Positions 19,031 to 64,000 of a DNA stretch of 64,000 nt are shown here, piece by piece. A program made the position numbers and the translations under genes. The notes under the pieces are model-generated. The model made no database searches and was not told the origin of the DNA. It saw only the letters and a program-made list of their open reading frames with translations. The stretch's first letter is position 1. The number at the start of each line of letters is the position of its first letter. The DNA is from Schizophyllum amplum (taxonomy: Eukaryota > Basidiomycota > Agaricomycetes > Agaricales > Schizophyllaceae): positions 62,001 through 126,000 of the forward strand of contig VDMD01000068.1 in assembly GCA_007026445.1 (NCBI GenBank), written 5' to 3'.

Positions 19031-20476
19031 TTCTGGCCTTTGTTCCAAACACGCGGCATCGGGATTCATCTGCACCGTTCGCGTTGTACCGCGCGAACGA
19101 CTACTATCCCTGCCGCATCACTCGGCAAGTCCTGCGTGGGTGTATATACACATGCCATTGACATTGACTGAGGCTGAATTTCTTTGTAATAGGTCGACAT
19201 GAGCAGCACGCCGTCGAACCGCACCCGGGCCGCGCGTCAATCATCGCCTCACCGAAATCACGATGTATACGTCAGACGCGTTCACAACCTGGTGTTGCAG
19301 CTAAATGGTGACCGCGACTGGTCCGCCGGCCCCGCGTCCAACCCTCGCAATGCTCTATCGAAGATACGGGCTCTCCTGACCGACAAGGTTGACCCCGTGT
19401 TCTCCTCGCTATCTGACGATCTTCCGGACTCTGGATATCTGCTCGAGGATGATGAACTCGTCGGTGTCGTTTTGGAAGACCTAGATTGCTTCAGCATGAC
19501 CTGCGAAGCCGTGGGCAGAACCGCGTCGAACCTCGGACTCTATAGCGACCTCGACGACAGACTGTACGCTATGTGGCCCCATGCATTGAAGTGGCTCGCT
19601 TTCTTCCACCCAGGCAATGGAAGGATTCGTTGCCCGACGGCTGCCTCGCACCGGCACTTTGTCCTTGGCAGCCTCGCCCTCATCTACCTGCTGATCTTCC
19701 AGACCAACCGTGGTCACGTAAAACGTCTCCTAGTCGAACGCCCAGATATGCTGCACCCCATCTTCGACCTCTGGCTGAAGTTCCCGCAGTACGTTCCGCC
19801 TGTCGCGGGGCAGTCAAAATTCGACCCGATTGACACAATCCACAACATCCTCAAGGCTGTAGCGTGCATCTACAACCTCGTAGCCGGTTGGGACAACTCT
19901 CACAACCAGCGAGGCGCAAGATCCATCACCATCAACGGCGACGACGCCCGCGACATCTTCATCCGCGAGCTCCGGCGACACGTTCGTGGCAAGGGGGGCC
20001 TGCACGTGCACTTCGCCAAGCGGAACCAATATCTCCTGGAGCTGCCGATGCCGCCACACCTGGCCGAGGGAACGTGGCATACCCATCTCGAGCAGCAGAT
20101 TCACATCCTGAATCTCCCCGCATTCCAGCTCGACGTCGCTCCTCGCTCGTTCCTCAGATCAGTAGTATCCTCCGGAAATCATTGTATCCAGCGTGGGTGG
20201 CACGAGTGCGCGCTGCGTGCAGTCGCTGTCGTTATTGTCGTTTGCGAGGCCAGCAGCAGCAACCGAACGCTTCGTCGATGCATTGAAGCGGGCGCGTACG
20301 ACCTGCTTCTGGCCGCCGCAAAAATCTCCGAAGGCGATCGCGCCGTGCAGAGTCTATCTTACAAGTTGTCCATCGGGCTCGCTCAGCAGTCGCTTTTGCG
20401 CGCGTTTCACCGCATGCACGGGGACCGGTTCGTCTATCCTGAAAAGCTATCTAGAGACCCCAAGCAGGCGTCATAC

Positions 20477-55632: not shown

Positions 55633-58161
55633 TCATCGTCCTCGATGATCTGCGTAAAGGCCGTCCTCCCAACCGAGTTCCTGGGGTGGGGCAGCTGTGA
55701 AGTTGACAATGGGCTGCCAGGGGAGGGATGCGAAGATGGACGCGTTGATTGCACGCGGGGCGCTCGGGTGCTTTTTGTGGAAAGCATTGAGTTTGCGCTT
55801 GGCGTTTGCCAGGTGAGCCGCGGGTTCCCAGCCGTTATGGCTCTCGTCGTAGCCCTTCCACTTGACGCGGTACTGGAGGACCTTGTTGCGTATACGGCTG
55901 TCAAGGATGTCCTCTACCTCGTATTCCTCCTCGCCTTCCACTTCCACCGGTTCGGGTGGCTGTAGAGTTTCGCCGTTGACATTGTTGCCCTTCCAGGGGG
56001 TCAACTTGTCGATGTGGAAGACATCGTGGATGCCCTTGTGATCGAGGGGAAGTTCGAGCCGATACGCGAGATCTCCAACCTTCTCCTTGATCGAGAAGGG
56101 GCCAAGGTAGCGAGCACCGAGCTTGCGACTGGGAACCTTGATGTTCACGTTCTTCGCATTGAGCCAGACACGGTCACCCACTTCGAAGCGTAAGGGAGGG
56201 GCGTCGCCGTGTGTATGCCGTTCCTGTTGGTGCTTCTTGGCGAGTTCCAAGGCATGAACAGCATCCTCGCGGGCCTCTTTCAGGAGCTCGATGCGCTGGT
56301 CGGCAAGAGGGCTGCGAGATTTCCTGCCGATGGGGATGTTGAAGAGCGGGAGGTACCCGTACATGATCTCGAAGGGGGAGGTACCGAGTGAGGAGTTGGG
56401 GTGCGAGTTGATAACAAACTCGGCCGCGGGGAGGTGCTCATCCCAGTCGTCCTGCCGGTGGCTGACAAACATGCGCAGATACTTCTCCACCTCCTGGTTG
56501 GCACGCTCTGTCTGACCATTCGTGGCAGGGTGGTAGGCAGTGGAGAAGTTGTACTCGATCCCAAGACGTTTGAGCAGGGCGCGCATCATGGCGGCGACGA
56601 ACTGGGATCCACGGTCGCTGATGAAGCGGAGTGGGAGACCATGGAGTCGGAAAATCTCGCGGTAGTAGAGATCGGCGGCATCGCTGGCGGTGAGGTGGGT
56701 GTCGCAGGGAATGGCATGAACCTGCTTGCTGAAGTGGTCCACGCATACGAAGATGGCATTGTATCCGTGCGCCGTCGGGAGGTTTGTGATGAGGTCCACC
56801 CCGACATGTTCCCAGGGGCCGGCCGGCACCTCAAGTGGATGGGTCCCCGTCTGCGGAGTGTGGTGATGCGCCTTGCGGCGTGCACAGGCGTCACAGCCAG
56901 CGACATACTTCTCTACGAAGGAGCGCATGGTGGGCCACCAGAAGTGCGAGTCGACCAGTTGCAGAGTTCCATGAAGACCTGGGTGTCCAGCGGTGGGGAG
57001 GTCGTGGCACTGTTTGACGACCTCACGTCGTAAGTCCTTGTCCGGCGGGATATAGACTCGGCCGCGGTAGTAGATCAGTCCGTTATCCTCTTCCCATTCA
57101 GCGAGTCCGTTTGTCAGCTGACGTAGCCCATTCTTGCGCAAGCTCTCCAGTCCTTCCAGGACTACTGCCTCACGTTCGCTGGCCTGGCGGATGCGATCTT
57201 CGAGCGGGTTGGCCACGAGCGTGTTGGCGGCGAGCTTGGCAAATCGCTCGGGTCCTAAGACAATCTGCTCGCGATTGTCGTCGTTGTCTGAGACACGATG
57301 GTGTGGCATGCGCGAGAGAGGGTCGGCCTGGGTGTTGGCAGCGCCGGGGCGGTGTACCATTCGGAAGTCGAAGCGGGAGAGCCAGAGGGCCCAGCGAGCT
57401 TGCCGTCGGCTAAGGTCCTGTGCCGTGCGCCAATATTCAAGATTGGAGTGGTCGGTGACGATCTCGAAGGGCTGTGGGAGACCTTCTAGAAAGCCGCGCC
57501 AATCTTTGAGGGCTTCAATGATGGCGAGCATCTCGCGATCGTAGATCTCGTAGTTGCGCTCGGCCGGCTGCATGGATGCTGATCGGAATGCCACCGGGTG
57601 CCACAAATCGTCCTCCAACTTCTGCATCAGGGCGCCCCCCGTAGCGTAGCCGGAGGCATCGACCTCGATGCGTGTAGGACGATCTGGGTCCCAGAGTGCC
57701 AGTACGGGTGCGGAGATGAATGCGTCGCGTAGAGTCTCGAAGGCTGTTCGTTGGGGTGCATCCCAATGCCATTTCACGTCCTTCTTGGTTAGGTCGTTGA
57801 GTGGGCGAGCGACCTTGGAGAAGTCCTTAATGAAGCGACGGTAGAAGTTGGCGAAGCCTAAGAATCCGCGAAGATCACGTAGGTTCTTGGGAGACGGCCA
57901 GTCGCGTACTGCGGCAACCTTGACAGGGTCCATGCGGACTTCGCCTTCCCGAATGACGAGACCCAGGTACTCGATCTCCTCGCGCTCGAATTCGCACTTT
58001 TCCGGGCGCAGGTATAGGTCGTGCTTCCGCAGCCGGTCGAGTACTTCACGGACTACGGTGCGGTGGTCCTCGAGCGTCTTGCTGAAGATGAGAATGTCGT
58101 CCAGGTAGACTGCGACCTTCCCTGCGGCGATTAAGTCGGAGAAGATGGAGTTCATGAGCAC
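55633..58161 (-). CDS. Gypsy Pol fragment: RT (C-terminal half), RNase H, integrase, chromodomain
   Basis: An unbroken 842-residue frame with no ATG, because its N-terminal half has been cut off. In order: the catalytic YLDD of reverse transcriptase (about residue 19); RNase H with [13 protein letters not shown] and [12 protein letters not shown] (about 165-220); an HHCC zinc site (H...H...C-x2-C, about 390-430); an integrase core with the D, D and E residues in [15 protein letters not shown] and NGQTERAN; a GPY/F-like module ([11 protein letters not shown]); and a C-terminal chromodomain with [17 protein letters not shown]. Chromodomains of this class steer integration to marked chromatin. 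The lack of internal stops shows the element was intact recently. It cannot be autonomous now. Confidence 0.92.
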
Positions 58162-58227
58162 CTATCCCCCTTATCCGCGGTTCTGCTAGCAGAACAGGTT
58201 CTGCTTCAAGGCGGTTCTGCTAATATT
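58162..58227 (+). repeat. 66-bp terminal-like repeat, copy 2, at the Gypsy break
   Basis: It starts CTATCCCCCTTATCCG immediately after the last pol codon. It contains GGTTCTGCT three times directly and once inverted; GTTCTGCTAGCAGAAC is a perfect 16-bp palindrome. It ends TCTGCTAATATT, followed by an A+T-rich stretch. Iterated sites next to an insertion point are typical of transposase-binding ends. The other end of the inserted element is not seen before 64000. Copy 1 at 52885 has the same orientation. Confidence 0.7.
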
Positions 58228-58779
58228 CATTTATTAAATTGTGATTTATTTGGGCATTAAAATGGGCTCAGCGGACGTTTTGACACGCCGAAATCTCCCA
58301 CCGGACGTCCGCAAGGCTCTGCTTCAGGCCGCCCAGATCGCATTTTGACATTTGCGGACGGCTTTTCAGTGTCAAAACTCGTCCGTGGGCCATCCGACAG
58401 TGGGTTTTGGGGATGGTACTGGATTATATCGGTTGTTTTGGCAGCCCGATGCGCCATCAGTTCAGGCTTGACCCTGCTTGCCGGTGGCACAGACTCTGCC
58501 CTGGTGGTCACCATCGCCCGCGCGGCTCCAGAAGTCGTCCATCTGTTAACAGATTGTCGCTTTCCGGGTCACAATTGGAGTGAAATCCTCAGTTTTGACA
58601 GGGTGATTCGATATCAGGGCGCTCATAGCTATGCCTTTCGGCAGCACAGATGCTTGTTGATGGTGCGGATGTTCTACCACCTCCAAAACCCCACTTTGAC
58701 ATAGCACTGCTTCAGTGCCCTGACCCTGCTGTCCGTGCTCTGACCGCTCCACTGGCACTGCTGTCCTGGCACTGCATCC

Positions 58780-59440
58780 AGCGCCAAAACCGGAACCCGG
58801 CCATTCAGGAACAAATTGCACGGGCACATGGTCTGTGTTCGCCGACATTATTTGTCCTCAATGTAGCCTGACACATGTAAGGATCTTGTCAAATTCTCGT
58901 CCGCAGCTTGCGCAATGTGCAGGCTGTAGATGCCTGTCCTGCAGGACTGCGGATGGAAGCACAAGTGGATGTGGGACGTCGGCATTGCTGTGCTTGTACT
59001 GGCAATGCGTCCAGGGCCAAAGCGGGAACCCGGCCATTCAAGAACGGGTCGCACAGGCACGCGGTCCCTATCTGCTGACATTATTTGTCCTAAATGTAGC
59101 CTGACACATGTAAGGATCATGTCAAATTCTCGTCCGCAGTTTGCGCCATGTGCACGCTCTAGATGCCTGTCCTGCAGGACTGCGGACGTGAGCAACACTG
59201 GATATGCGAGAACGTCCCAGCAGTCGGCATCACGGTTCCTGTGAGGATGCAGAGTCCGGCTGTGGCATTCTGTCTGCCTGGCATCGCTGCCCTTGCACCG
59301 TTTTCAGCGTGTGAGCGGCAATGGGGTCACGCAGGAACATGTCGAGCAGGTGCATGGTCTCCATCCGCCAACGTCATTTGTCCCTGAATGTATGACGACA
59401 GATGTAATGATCTTGTGAAATTCTCCTCCGCAGGTTGGGA
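58780..59440. repeat. three dispersed-tandem copies of a block of about 170 bp
   Basis: A block containing AACCCGGCCATTCA, GACATTATTTGTCCT, TAGCCTGACACATGTAAGGA and TCAAATTCTCGTCCGCAG occurs at about 58795-58955, 59029-59190 and (more divergent) 59320-59440. Spacing is about 234 and 290 bp. Minus frames through it are open but differ between copies, so coding is not supported. No gene is seen between 58228 and 59600. Confidence 0.75.
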
Positions 59441-59603
59441 AAACTGCTTAGACGGCTGAGGATGTGAGGGCGAGCGGTTGGAGGACGGGACTGGGCCAGT
59501 CGTGGTCGCCGTGTTCACAAGTATGTGAACACTAGCTGTGGGGTACCCTTTGCAAGGTGTCAGACCTTTCTCTCGTATGCCGGCACGGTACTGCAATACA
59601 CAC

Positions 59604-59919
59604 CTAATGTCCGCGTTGTGGGGCCGCGGCCCTCCCTCGCTGCCGCGCTTCCATCCACTCCTTGCTTGGCACCCCGCGGCGCCTGGCTGCCATCCAATCC
59701 TCAACCGTTCTGTACGCCTCGTGCAGCTCGAACCGGGCCTGTCTAAACTCCTTCTCCCGCCTTTTTAACTCCTTCTGCTGCTGGCGCAGATGAACCAGCT
59801 GGGCATGCTGAGACCGTAAGGCAGTTGCTCTGAACGAAATCAAGCGGACGTACAAAGTATACCCTGTACCGATAGCATTGTCCCAGGACGCAATCCTGCT
59901 CGGAGCACACGTCGCACAT
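59604..59919 (-). CDS. micro-gene 1: Cys N-terminus plus helix
   Basis: Exon 1 59919-59854 (22 codons) begins MCDVCSEQDCVLGQC. The 46-nt intron is GTACGT...TCTCAG, phase 0. Exon 2 59807-59604 gives HAQLVHLRQQQKELKRREKE and continues to a Trp/Met/Ala/Arg-rich segment (EDWMAARRRG). Total 89 residues. Cys at 2, 5, 10 and 15 could hold a metal. It shares its upstream region with micro-gene 2, which is divergent; 154 bp separate the two ATGs. It has no match in families known to me, and function is unknown. Confidence 0.65.
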
Positions 59920-60073
59920 AGTGTGAGTGATTGAAGTGTGCAGCTGCAGATACTGGAACCGCGGTAGAAAGCAAGACAAGTCGCGTGAGAAAGTGATGCT
60001 GTATAAGGCTTCGTCTGATCGGCGGGCAGGCCTGCTTTGTCATTCTACTAGCACGCACCCCGCCCTGTGCAGT
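59920..60073. promoter_or_regulatory. shared divergent promoter of micro-genes 1 and 2
   Basis: The 154-bp interval between two ATGs that point away from each other contains GCTGTATAAGGC (about 59998-60009), a possible TATA box in the plus direction for micro-gene 2. CTTTCTCACG, read on the minus strand, recalls the pyrimidine stretch before micro-gene 6. Inference from position only. Confidence 0.4.
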
Positions 60074-60477
60074 ATGTGCGTCACCTGTGCTCAACAAGCT
60101 TGCGAGGCCATGCAGCTTCTGAAGGCTATGATGGAGTCTGAGGAGGTCAGCTTCCAGCTTTTGCTTGTCCAACAGTACTCTCATTGGCCTTGGCAGAACC
60201 CGTACACCATAGCGCAGGCGCAAGCCCAGGCAAGCCAGCGGCTGAGAGCACTTGAGGGGACAAGCGGTACTTCCTGAAGGTTGCAGACGATCTGAAGACC
60301 AGGTATCCAAGGGCCTTTTTCTACCATGCGGACGAAGAAGACCAGGACGACGAAGAGGACCCTGAAAGCATGGATATGATGGACAGCAGGGATCAGCCAA
60401 ACGAGCAGGAATTCGCAAAGATGGTGGAAGAAGCGGAGATGTATCAGAATGCGCAGGAGCCCACCAGTGACACGTAG
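60074..60477 (+). CDS. micro-gene 2: Cys N-terminus plus helix, one-base lesion
   Basis: Exon 1 60074-60145 (24 codons) begins MCVTCAQQACEAMQLLKAMM. The intron 60146-60196 is 51 nt, phase 0. Exon 2 begins NPYTIAQAQAQASQRLRALE and then goes out of frame at a run of four G (about 60263). One more G would continue it as KRYFLKVADDLKTRYPRAFF and into an acidic tail ending SDT at TAG 60477. Intact length would be about 118 residues. Either the base was lost here or the sequence has an error. This is the only member on the plus strand. Confidence 0.55.
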
Positions 60478-60559
60478 GAGAATGAGAGGAAGTTATGATT
60501 GTAGCATCCCAGAATGAGAACGCTGAGCCCATTGTTCTAAAGGGCAGTGAAATGCTCTC

Positions 60560-60833
60560 TTTTGAAAACGATTTACGGAATGAGCCTCAATTCGGGCGAG
60601 CCTGCACCCCAACGCGTACTCGCCGCTGGACCATGCAGCTAACATTGCGCCCCTCTGCGGACAAAGTTACGGGACAGCTCGATCTCAACGTGCACCGGTT
60701 GACGACCAGCGCAAGGACACGCTTACGTTGGATGAGGCAAGGACATGAGCGAGGACGAGGAGCAGGTGGAACAGGCAGTGCAGCAGCAAGCATTGGATAT
60801 TGAGGTGAAGGCAACAGATGTGCGGACGTAAGG
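60560..60833 (+). pseudogene. possible decayed small gene
   Basis: Plus-strand pieces with good composition appear in different frames: MSLNSGEPAPQRVLAAG, then APVDDQRKDTLTLDEAR, then MSEDEEQVEQAVQQQALDIE and VKATDVRT before TAA 60831-60833. The order and acidity suggest one former gene with frameshifts. It lacks the M-C-x2-C start, so I do not count it in the micro-gene family. Confidence 0.3.
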
Positions 60834-61029
60834 TTCACGTATGTACGCATATCTAGACCCAGAGCTCTGCGAGCGCCTGTTGGTAAGAAGCCCCAGTGCT
60901 TGCCCACCAGCAATGCACGCTCGAGGACGCTGCTTGTTGGCATGAGTGATTGGTGATCAAAGTTGAAAGCAAAGTTTGAACGTGGGGCGGCAAGCTGCGT
61001 CAGGCGCTTCGTCCGCATTTCGTGCCATG

Positions 61030-61111
61030 CAAGCTCCAAATTTTCAGAGTCCCGCTGTCAAAACCTCGGCTGAGGACGTTCTGACAGCGGGACTCTGAAT
61101 TTTGAGCTTGC
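61030..61111. repeat. imperfect inverted repeat, about 33-bp arms
   Basis: The arm with CAGAGTCCCGCTGTCA at 61045-61060 recurs inverted as TGACAGCGGGACTCTG at about 61081-61096, both inside longer partly matching arms. It lies between the pieces at 60.8 kb and micro-gene 3, downstream of both. A transcript could fold into a hairpin; it might be a termination or RNA-processing structure, or a small element. Confidence 0.6.
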
Positions 61112-61283
61112 TGTCCTTGCGCTCGGATGATGTATAGCCCGCGTGCCTTGATAGATGTCTATAACGTCATGGCCCTCGGAGCTGGGCCCGAGCAGGGGCC
61201 AGTGCCTGGCAGACGGCACGGTCATGCATTCTTGATTGCGGACATGAGTCCTGATTTCTACGCTGCAGCCTTCCAGCATACAC

Positions 61284-61626
61284 TCAGCCGTCCAGCCCAG
61301 TATCTCCCCCGCTCTCGCTGTGGGTTCCCTGACCTTCTTTGCCATCGGACTGCTCGGATTCGGCTCCGCTCTCCGATCGGCTTTCTTCCTCCGTTGTGCT
61401 GTCAGGCTCATAAAGGTCCCGCATCCTGTTGAGATCCCCCTGCAGCCGATTGTTGCGCACGACCAGCGCATCGTTGATCCGCTCAAGACGGCGGCACATC
61501 TCCTCCCATATCGTATAGGTCTACGGTGCGTCAGGTCTCCGTCCTGCTAGTATCTGTGCTTCCACGAACCGTCTGGCCTGAGATGATGGTTTGCTTCTTG
61601 CCACACCGAGTGCAGCGGGCAGACAT
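61284..61626 (-). CDS. micro-gene 3: CxxC N-terminus plus helix
   Basis: Exon 1 61626-61570 (19 codons) begins MSARCTRCGKKQ. The intron is 49 nt (GTTCGT...CCTGACG...CGTAG), phase 0. Exon 2 61520-61284 starts TYTIWEEMCRRLERINDALV and ends with an acidic Ser/Glu/Gly tail. Total 97 residues. The start departs from the family pattern (C at 5 and 8), but the gene structure and the T-Y opening of exon 2 agree with micro-genes 5 and 6. Function unknown. Confidence 0.6.
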
Positions 61627-61853
61627 GGATGATTTGGGCGGTTGAGGCAATGGTGGGCGGGTCCAAGGTGCAAATGTGGATCGGGTGTTTCAGATGTACG
61701 GTGACAAAGTGGCGTTCCATCTGACCGGCCGAGATGTCGTCCGCGTGCCCCGCGTTCGCCCGCCATGAGCACCAAAAATGGCAAAAGCTCGCGCCTCAAC
61801 CTCCAGCCGCCTAGTAGGTCATGAACAGATTCATGATGTCCCCTGCGTCTGAT

Positions 61854-62039
61854 TCAGCAGGCTACCCAGAAGCGTCCACAGCTCAGCGGACGTCCAACAC
61901 GTTCAACCACAGCCACCAGGCGCAGGCGCACCGCCCGCGCAACGTCCTCACTCTGCCCCTCCCTCCCATCTCCAGCGCCCAATAACTCCCAAGCTGGATG
62001 ACGGCAGCGGGTGCAGAGGTGACCTTCTTTGCCTTGCAT
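61854..62039 (-). CDS. possible small Cys-containing ORF
   Basis: ATG 62039 to TGA 61854 codes 61 residues: HLCTRCRHPAWELLGAGDG, then an Arg/Val/Leu-rich end with two more Cys. CTRC also occurs in micro-gene 3. There is no clear intron or second-exon match, so this may be a decayed family member or chance. Confidence 0.25.
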   Translation of the reverse strand: MQGKEGHLCTRCRHPAWELLGAGDGREGQSEDVARAVRLRLVAVVERVGRPLSCGRFWVAC

Positions 62040-62122
62040 CTGCAGTTGGTACTGCGCTTTGGCAACAATATCACTATTCCATCCCGCTTCTGTTCGTCCG
62101 CAGCGCAAAGGTGCACCATATG

Positions 62123-62162
62123 TGTGACAAAAAGCCTGAGGCTTCTCAGGCTTTTTGTCACA
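62123..62162. other. perfect 18-bp hairpin with 4-nt loop
   Basis: TGTGACAAAAAGCCTGAG, loop GCTT, CTCAGGCTTTTTGTCACA. All 18 pairs match. It lies between micro-genes 3 and 4, about 240 bp downstream of the micro-gene 4 stop and about 500 bp upstream of the micro-gene 3 start. It could be a 3'-end signal, a structured RNA, a small inverted-repeat element or a recombination site. Confidence 0.8.
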
Positions 62163-62399
62163 TGTCACGCTGAATGTGTGGCGTCCACGTGGATCAACGC
62201 TGAAGCGCTCCCTTGACGCACTGGAGGGCCAGAACGATGTTCTATAAGGCAGCCGTTGTGCCGCAGTGATAATGATGTACTGCTTGCTTGCGTATGTATA
62301 TGAGTACCGACGCCTCTGTGCGTCCACATTTGAGAAGGCTCATGCGCTGTTCACCCGCAGTGTCAGTTATGATTCTACGTTCAGTGGAGGTGCTCACCA

Positions 62400-62663
62400 C
62401 TAGTCTTTCTGCCTCCTTGCGTTCATCTCGGCCATAATTATTCTCTTGTATTCTGCAATCTCGCCCTTTATGTCGTCCTGCTGCTCCTCCTTATGAATCC
62501 TGTTCCTCCGCAGCGTGCGCCATCTGTCTAGCATGCGGATATACTCCTGGATTGTCTATCAGCCTGAGGTTCAGGAGAGGACTTTGACGCGCACCCCAAC
62601 AGGGACCTGTGTGCCTAGAACGTCCGGCAGCCCACACGCTTTCTCCGGACAGATTTGGCACAT
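62400..62663 (-). CDS. micro-gene 4: Cys N-terminus plus helix
   Basis: Exon 1 62663-62595 (23 codons) begins MCQICPEKACGLPDVLG. The intron 62594-62547 is 48 nt (GTGCGC...ATCCAG), phase 0. Exon 2 62546-62400 gives EYIRMLDRWRTLRRNRIHKE and ends MAEMNARRQKD. Total 71 residues. The sequence E-E-Q-Q-D-D-I-K then E-I-A-E-Y-K-R aligns with E-K-R-N-K-E-M-E then I-Q-Y-K-E-R in micro-gene 5. Function unknown. Confidence 0.65.
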
Positions 62664-62966
62664 TGCGGCCGAGAGGGTCTTGTTTTCTGGGGCTGCGAAT
62701 GCGGATGAGACGGTTGTGGTTGCAGTCAAGACGCAGATCGGACGACGACCATTCAGGCGTCTGCTTCCTGCTGTTATTCTGTCTGCTTATGCAGTTTTGG
62801 CGGCGCCAAATGTAGATGCGGATCAAGTTACCGTGGTAAGAGTCGAGGTACAAAACACGTAAAGGTAATTTAGGTGTCCGTCCCGGCCAGTCCTTGCCGT
62901 CGGTATCTGCGTCACTTCAAGTGGTAACTCCCTCCCTTCGCCCGTTGTCCTTGCCGCGCTTGGTGG

Positions 62967-63231
62967 CTACCGCAAGCCAGTCCGTTGCGCCGCCTTCCAA
63001 GCTTTGATACGCTCCTTGTACTGTATGATGTTGGCCTCCATCTCTTTGTTGCGCTTCTCGAGCGAGACCTTCCATTTGCGCAGTTCGTCCAAGCCGTGCA
63101 TTGCGTACACATAAGTCTTTCCCAACGGTCAGATGCCGTTGTTCGTGGTGCTTGACACTCACCGGCAGCGCGGGAGGTGTTTCCATTGTTTGCCGCAGCT
63201 TGCACTCGCCGTCGTTGCACATGGTGCACAT
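62967..63231 (-). CDS. micro-gene 5: Cys N-terminus plus helix
   Basis: Exon 1 63231-63163 (23 codons) begins MCTMCNDGECKLRQTME. The intron 63162-63117 is 46 nt (GTGAGT...CTGACC...AAAG), phase 0. Exon 2 63116-62967 gives TYVYAMHGLDELRKWKVSLE, continues KRNKEMEANIIQYKERIKAW, and ends RTGLR. Total 72 residues. Exon 2 is almost wholly a charged amphipathic helix with Leu, Ile and Met at heptad-like steps, so a coiled coil is likely. Nearest family neighbours are 4 (downstream) and 6 (upstream), all head to tail. Confidence 0.68.
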
Positions 63232-63352
63232 AGTGATGGTGCGATGGTAGGCAGTGGTGACAGTTGCAGTGTATGGTTGTGGGTGAGAACAGGTTGGCCC
63301 ATTGTGTGTATGGATTTACAGGACATGCGATTATCAAACTGCGCGGATGAAT

Positions 63353-63792
63353 TTACGCCTCATCGTCATCAACCCCGTGTGCCGTCAGCGCGCGCTCCAC
63401 CTCGTCCTCGCTGTCCCCGTCCGCGACAGCCGTCGTGTCGGTATCCTCTCCGCTGTCAAGGATGACTCCCGTGGTCTGCTCGTCGCTTTTCTGTGGTTGT
63501 TCCTCCTCGGCTTTGTTCTGAACACTGTTCTGCCTGCTGTATGTGAAGGCCTCTGGGAATAGCTCCCTCAGATTGATTATCCGGACTTCTAGACACCTCT
63601 GCAGCCTTAATTGCTCATTTACTGCGGCTTCTTCGGCGCGGAACTGCTCCCAGAGATCGATGTATGTCTGCGCTGCGTTAGCCTTTTTCCTTGGCCTGCC
63701 TAGACGGTTGCTCGGCTTACCATCTCTGTCCGCATCACCTCCTTCAGCAGTGGACACATGGCGCATTCTTCAGAGTCACAGATGTGGCACAT
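63353..63792 (-). CDS. micro-gene 6: Cys N-terminus plus helix and acidic tail
   Basis: Exon 1 63792-63721 (24 codons) begins MCHICDSEECAMCPLLKEVM after a CCACC context. The intron 63720-63668 is 53 nt (GTAAGC...GGCTAACGCAGCGCAG), phase 0. Exon 2 63667-63353 starts TYIDLWEQFRAEEAAVNEQL, continues RIINLRELFPEAF, and ends with an acidic Asp/Glu-rich tail (EVERALTAHGVDDDEA). Total 128 residues, the longest of the set. Cys at 2, 5, 10 and 13. LRELFPEAFTYS resembles LKTRYPRAFFYH in micro-gene 2. Function unknown. Confidence 0.68.
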
Positions 63793-64000
63793 GGTGGCGA
63801 AAGTGAAAAGCGTTGGACCTGTTGACTCTTGCAACATACACGGTTCAAGTAATAATTGGGGTTCTTCCCACGATTGTTTGGCGTACGGCCGCTCATTATA
63901 TTTCACCTCCTGTCACCCATCTGCCTTGTTCGTCATGCTACGCGCGCCTTTATCCTTACTCATCGTCCCTGTCGGCTTCCTCTCCGCTGTCTTTCCCTGC

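Follow-up and report, generated by a model that had tools for sequence, protein, structure and literature searches.

What are the small genes packed into the right end of a 64-kb stretch of the Schizophyllum amplum genome, and why do they lie together? The stretch, called the window here, is the 64,000 nucleotides (nt) from position 62001 to 126000 of contig VDMD01000068.1 (C275), in an assembly of 49.65 Mb and 309 contigs. An earlier note, made from the sequence alone, had described a cluster of at least six two-exon genes between 59604 and 63792. We found that the six genes are present but that they belong to a family of at least seven types in a mostly constant order, not to a loose cluster. 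They are one copy of a recurring cassette, which we write as A-B-C-D-(E/F divergent pair)n plus H.

The window genes are one copy of a recurring cassette

We defined the seven types, A, B, C, D, E, F, and H, by reading motif-dense stretches and building profiles. With one query per type, there were at least 115 exon-level protein matches at E values up to 0.1 (at least 13 for A, 16 for B, 25 for F, 22 for E, 5 for H, 15 for D, and 19 for C). All of them lie on 11 of the 309 contigs (C30, C164, C223, C242, C243, C249, C254, C275, C291, C300, and C301). The order A-B-C-D-(E/F) was found in seven blocks: those on C30, C164, and C301, the second on C243, the inner one on C254 (with B interrupted), the first set on C275, and the right one on C291. 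Three other blocks (C223-end, C249, and C254-end) read B-C-D-(E/F), with no A detected; on C223 and C254, the contig breaks off at that point. By blastn, copies that are near-identical over several kilobases are found inside each of several groups, and divergence between groups is strong. A noisy blastp comparison between copies indicated extra H-type genes.

In the window itself, six two-exon gene models are followed by the tail of a type A gene at the right edge. The plus-strand order is F, E, H, D, C, B, and then A, which runs over the edge. The limits first claimed for the cluster correspond to the stop of F (59604) and the start of B (63792).

59604..59919, minus strand: type F gene; exon 1 59854-59919, intron 59808-59853 (46 nt), exon 2 59604-59807; 89 amino acids, beginning MCDVCSEQDC
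60074..60477, plus strand: type E gene; exon 1 60074-60145, intron 60146-60196, exon 2 to about 60477, with a frameshift in exon 2
61284..61626, minus strand: type H gene; exon 1 61570-61626 (19 codons), intron 61521-61569 (49 nt), exon 2 61284-61520; acidic tail
62400..62663, minus strand: type D gene; exon 1 62595-62663, intron 62547-62594 (48 nt), exon 2 62400-62546; 71 amino acids, beginning MCQICPEKAC
62967..63231, minus strand: type C gene; exon 1 63163-63231, intron 63117-63162 (46 nt, AAG acceptor), exon 2 62967-63116; 72 amino acids, beginning MCTMCNDGEC
63353..63792, minus strand: type B gene; exon 1 63721-63792, intron 63668-63720 (53 nt), exon 2 63353-63667; 128 amino acids, beginning MCHICDSEEC, with an acidic tail
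63956..64000, minus strand: 3' end of the type A gene, whose stop codon ends at 63956; the whole gene is C275:125956-126361, with its start at 126361, and encodes 117 amino acids

A second, partial gene set lies on C275 past the right edge of the window. Separately, C300:97878-102198 (L033:378-4698) matches window positions 58161-62481 at 99.6% identity, up to the end of that contig, and is perhaps the other haplotype.

The shared start and the predicted two-exon structure are maintained

The exact pattern ATG-TGY-N6-TGY-N12-TGY occurs five times in the 64 kb, at 59919(-), 60074(+), 62663(-), 63231(-), and 63792(-), all within 4.2 kb and nowhere else in the window. The chance expectation is 0.045 per window, with a maximum of 1 in 200 simulations (first-order Markov, same composition). 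Genome-wide, the exact motif is found 167 times and the reversed pattern 68 times, with dense runs of the motif on a few contigs among the matches listed. Thus, five of the six predicted proteins do begin exactly M-C-x2-C-x4-C. The sixth, type H at 61284-61626, begins M-S-A-R-C-T-R-C, with C-x2-C from residue 5 as the earlier note had it, and has a phase-0 GT-AG intron.

For each of the six window genes, a phase-0 intron of 46-53 nt following 19-24 codons fits, as had been predicted, and its borders are GT-AG. We entered 35 gene models across the cassettes, and 33 fit as entered, with a GT-AG intron of 43-58 nt at a codon boundary after 22-24 codons; GT-AG borders were required of the models. 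The two models that failed as entered are both of type E, one with a GC donor and one that fits with a 50-nt intron. Cysteine (Cys) stands at the third motif position in 38 of 38 A-F proteins, a count subject to selection, since the motif served to find the genes.

We compared 83 within-type pairs of distinct copies. Their proteins are 23-82% identical, with 77 of the 83 pairs at most 60%. Synonymous divergence (dS) was saturated in 14 pairs. The ratio of nonsynonymous to synonymous divergence (dN/dS) was below 1 in all 69 others (0.12-0.89; median, 0.35; 56 below 0.5), and the highest values came from F compared with very distant F copies. Chance open reading frames (ORFs) are ruled out by the motif clustering, synteny, and dN/dS. 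The synteny, gene models, and dN/dS together support the view that this is an old, fast-diverging family of coding genes held in one place with a conserved layout.

Types A to F form two related subfamilies, with a second exon predicted helical in B and F

Types A to F share one plan: a first exon of 22-24 codons with Cys at residues 2, 5, and 10, a phase-0 intron of 43-58 nt, and, in some, an acidic tail. Profile comparison joined A, B, and E at 96-97% probability (subfamily I, mostly acidic) and C, D, and F at 94-96% (subfamily II, mostly shorter). Links between the two subfamilies were weaker (6-80%), and H was not joined to A-F by this comparison (4% or less). Net charge is negative in 5/5 A proteins, 10/10 E proteins (one only -1), and 5/6 B proteins; among C proteins it runs from 0 to +7, among D proteins from -1 to +3, and among F proteins from -7 to +13.

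We modeled exon 2 of B and of F with AlphaFold2 without an alignment. For B, the model has a helix at 3-36 with high confidence, another at 38-54 with low confidence, and then a low-confidence tail. For F, helices were predicted at 2-43 and 48-61. The proposal that exon 2 is helical thus agrees with the prediction for both proteins. That exon 2 often opens T-Y was correct for B, H, and C of the window genes but not for D, E, and F. Judged by eye, no protein has a hydrophobic, signal-like N-terminal stretch. It is plausible that the N-terminal Cys residues bind metal or form disulfides.

E and F are arranged head to head and diversify together

Of the 24 E genes mapped, 23 face an F gene head to head. 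In the window, the two genes are divergent, with 154 bp separating their starts; in 21 pairs, near-identical copies counted, the separation is 114-216 bp. Across nine distinct pairs, E and F protein distances are correlated (r = 0.89; Mantel p = 5e-5, the minimum at 20,000 shuffles). The head-to-head layout and the co-diversification fit a plausible pairing of family members, but linkage by itself would also produce them.

Cassettes lie near contig ends, often on contigs with a putative helicase

C275 ends in TTAGGG repeats, which start 2.7 kb beyond the outermost A gene, and its cassettes lie 2.7-12.5 kb from them. Of the 14 cassette blocks, none is farther than 41 kb from a contig end, and 11 are no more than 20 kb from one (a plain count, with no null model). 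A DEAD/Helicase_C protein gave seven genome matches at E values up to 1e-10. Six of these are on cassette contigs (C164, C291 twice, C30, C223, and C254), separated from the cassette by about 1 to 27 kb. The seventh is on C172, whose telomere repeats lie about 1.2 kb away. By analogy, we refer to this putative helicase as RecQ-like; Pfam gives DEAD and Helicase_C only.

Was the cluster carried by or next to mobile DNA, as first proposed? A Ty3-type chromodomain retroelement does lie at window positions 55633-58161 on the minus strand, 1.4 kb from the cassette; its polyprotein has reverse transcriptase, RNase H, integrase, and chromodomain regions. However, what recurs with the cassette is nearness to contig ends and the RecQ-like helicase (six of seven matches), so the proposal was not supported in that form. 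Basidiomycetes are rich in KDZ transposons, and we found 77 KDZ transposase matches in this genome, none on the 11 cassette contigs. Together with the chromodomain Ty3 element, the TTAGGG telomeres, and the short introns, these matches mark the sequence as fungal, probably basidiomycete.

The family matches none described in the sources searched

Eight proteins were scanned against Pfam, and nothing scored above the cutoff (for example, Med30 at 18.5 bits against a cutoff of 28.1). Types A and F gave only weak, coiled-coil-like matches in the PDB (at best occludin, at E = 0.013 for F; TONSOKU at 0.72 for A). There were no relatives of types A, B, F, and D among IMG/VR viral contigs and none of type A among GTDB prokaryote genomes, and on these results we set aside a viral or prokaryotic origin. 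No literature description of the family was found in a search that left most subscription journals outside. The earlier statement that no described family has such a start is therefore borne out in Pfam (eight proteins), the PDB (A and F), and the literature searched. The novelty of the family is of this kind: no described family was matched in Pfam, the PDB, IMG/VR, GTDB, and the literature covered.

Several known systems resemble it in part. CxC cysteine clusters of KDZ transposons are common in basidiomycete genomes and are parts of large transposase proteins. The cassette proteins are alike in having a cysteine-rich segment but differ in that none of the eight scanned matched a Pfam CxC or KDZ family; with 0 of 77 KDZ matches on cassette contigs, KDZ/CxC transposon genes are ruled out. 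Zn2Cys6 regulators and CCHC zinc knuckles have a short Cys motif in common with the family. The regulators carry six Cys in one chain, and those of the Gal4 type join the Cys cluster to a dimerizing coil. Here, in contrast, each chain has three conserved Cys, as C-x2-C-x4-C, and no Pfam match above the cutoff. The CCHC zinc knuckle has the pattern C-x2-C-x4-H-x4-C, whereas the third position here is Cys in all 38 A-F proteins, Cys occurs at residue 15 in one, and Pfam again gave no match. HD1/HD2 mating-type pairs of mushrooms are divergent genes in multiple diverged versions. The E/F pair is alike in both respects, but it has no homeodomain above the cutoff (HNF-1_N, PBC, and Meis_PKNOX_N appeared only below it) and is multicopy near contig ends.

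The closest parallel is with subtelomeric gene families, which usually consist of one family in variable number. Diverged copies alongside recent near-identical ones, a trait of such families, are present here. Expansion and divergence at chromosome ends, as here, are described for a Candida albicans subtelomeric family in the part of that report drawn on (PMC9713401). In the portions used here, reports on Agaricus bisporus var. burnettii (PMC7473861) and Ganoderma leucocontextum (PMC10817607) describe subtelomeric RecQ-like (telomere-linked) helicases, and the former also describes many subtelomeric genes without a Pfam hit. Those regions are helicase-bearing, polymorphic chromosome ends, which our cassette contigs may resemble; the same portions make no mention of a small M-C-x2-C-x4-C two-exon gene set. 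A subtelomeric multigene family is a known kind of system; what is unusual is the ordered multiparalogue cassette, in which six or seven paralogous types are kept, mostly in one order and orientation. Where subtelomeric families usually comprise one gene in many versions, a whole paralogous set recurs at several contig ends, often on contigs with the RecQ-like helicase, and each of its members is strongly divergent between copies.

Proposed function of the cassette

What could such a set do? We favor the view, with a probability of about 0.6, that the cassette is a subtelomeric family of hetero-oligomeric, probably metal-binding coiled-coil proteins, likeliest acting at the chromosome end; the function is what we infer. 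The recurring subunit types, the two subfamilies, the near-inseparable E and F genes, and the coil-forming exon 2 point to a hetero-oligomer. According to this model, the proteins would act inside the cell as subunits and associate through their coils, probably across the two subfamilies (I with II), and E with F most clearly. Several I/II pairs would build one complex, which would account for the recurring gene set. The N-terminal Cys residues may bind zinc, possibly shared between chains; sharing by two chains is attractive because Cys 2, 5, and 10 look like part of a metal site that one chain cannot complete. Subtelomeric exchange would copy the cassette from end to end and let copies diverge, while selection would keep the subunit types. 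The contig-end location, once beside a telomere, and the helicase contigs suggest, but do not prove, work at the chromosome end. The likeliest task would be chromatin or telomere upkeep alongside the helicase.

Several observations weigh against this model. Three conserved Cys are one fewer than in a usual zinc site, H has only two motif Cys, and the E subtype beside the F1 gene lacks the first two (start MSTCAVNQ; loci L011, L014, L017, and L032, with exon 2 modeled in L032). The one E gene without an F is in the second C275 set, whose duplicated block starts between E and F. Nearest neighbors match in only six of nine E/F pairs, and linked duplication, without any contact between the proteins, would also be expected to give co-diversification. 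Nor is the order fully fixed. The C242 block has E/F pairs only; the first C243 block is partial, and its first gene, at the contig end, is B. Two more are rearranged or partial, namely the second C275 set (A, B, D, E, H) and the left C291 block, which reads H, A, B, D, B, B, C, followed by three E/F pairs. The position of H varies too: on C291 and C301 it is outside A, whereas on C275 it falls between D and E.

Doubts attach to the location as well. Matches to four TTAGGG units occur on five contigs, only one of which, C275, has the cassette; no other cassette contig has them. The other four, C7, C172, C240, and C248, have no protein match and no motif among the matches listed. Nearness to contig ends without telomere repeats could reflect assembly breaks at repeats. 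C275 itself has no helicase match at E values up to 1e-10.

A more specific form of the hetero-oligomer model would have I and II chains dimerize via their coils and pool three plus three Cys into a two-zinc, six-Cys split Zn2Cys6 cluster. Three or more such pairs (A, B, and E with C, D, and F) would make a chromosome-end complex whose specificity diversifies between telomeres. We regard this version as rather improbable. If the proteins do form one complex, the cassette would be a test system for the co-evolution of a multisubunit complex, and it may show the role of some of the unexplained nonhelicase genes at mushroom chromosome ends.

Alternative explanations

The genes could instead be a selfish or recognition module of fast-evolving incompatibility or poison-antidote genes, in which E and F would be a cognate pair with a shared bidirectional promoter and specificities EF1, EF2, and EF3. 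The head-to-head arrangement in 23 of 24 cases, co-diversification at r = 0.89, strong divergence under constraint, and several subtypes in one array (C243 and C291) are consistent with this. However, six or seven types exceed the needs of a two-gene killer, Pfam gave no match above the cutoff, and several near-identical copies occur together in the assembly; we consider such a module unlikely.

Another explanation is that the cassette is cargo of a large subtelomeric transposon or helicase-bearing element and moves as a unit. Near-identical multi-kilobase blocks on many contigs, the RecQ-like helicase on five cassette contigs, and the Ty3-type element beside the window copy would fit. In contrast, the helicase-cassette distance varies from about 1 to 27 kb, an informal blastn comparison revealed no common boundary, KDZ matches are absent from the cassette contigs (0/77), and copies are not scattered but all lie within 41 kb of contig ends. 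Cargo of this kind is, in our view, also an unlikely account.

The proteins might be small and membrane anchored, with Cys 2, 5, and 10 S-acylated instead of metal bound and the helix recruiting partners. Acylation of N-terminal Cys occurs in other proteins, and three conserved Cys only, one right after Met, would suit it. Yet D or E directly precedes the third Cys in 17 of 38 proteins. An acidic residue before Cys is unlike usual acylation sites, and spacing held constant at 2-5-10 is what one would more typically see in a metal site. We consider such anchoring quite improbable.

A few copies are broken: window E, D in L009, D in L010, and the interrupted inner B of C254. Exon 2 of E, frameshifted in the window, reads through in the near-identical C300 copy (L033) and in the 94.9%-identical C275 block (L009), and near-identical copies of the broken L010 D are intact in L024 and L029. 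Either assembly errors or partial decay would fit the broken copies. Decaying relics, in which an old repeat has left ORF-like pieces that no longer serve any function, are a most improbable source of the whole family. These breaks and the repetitive region would fit, but reading frames and splice sites are preserved and dN/dS stays below 1, even though no more than 60% identity remains in 77 of 83 pairs; the intact near-identical copies of window E and L010 D also fit sequencing or assembly error.

Other sequences near the cassettes

The C275 region is rich in the sequence GTCCGCA, with 20 occurrences in 13.9 kb compared with 7 in 55 kb. This sequence was considered as a conserved upstream motif, but the count was 0 in four other cassette stretches, so it is not general. 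Between the window genes, there are two hairpins, at 61043-61099 (25-nt arms, 92% complementary) and at 62123-62162 (18-nt perfect arms). Beside the cassette, at window positions 58762-59209, a 215-nt unit occurs in two direct copies that are 84% alike.

Farther along C275, a short interstitial TTAGGG run lies at about 131928-131960 (L009:5928-5960), just past the outermost A gene. An ORF on the minus strand at C275:133044-134153 (L009:7044-8153) abuts the telomeric repeats and has the reverse transcriptase-like motifs GLAMG and YIDD. It had no significant Pfam or PDB match, and we presume a resemblance to telomere-associated Penelope-like elements. On C223, a match to a TET/JBP oxygenase domain lies near the cassette, at L017:3324-3875.

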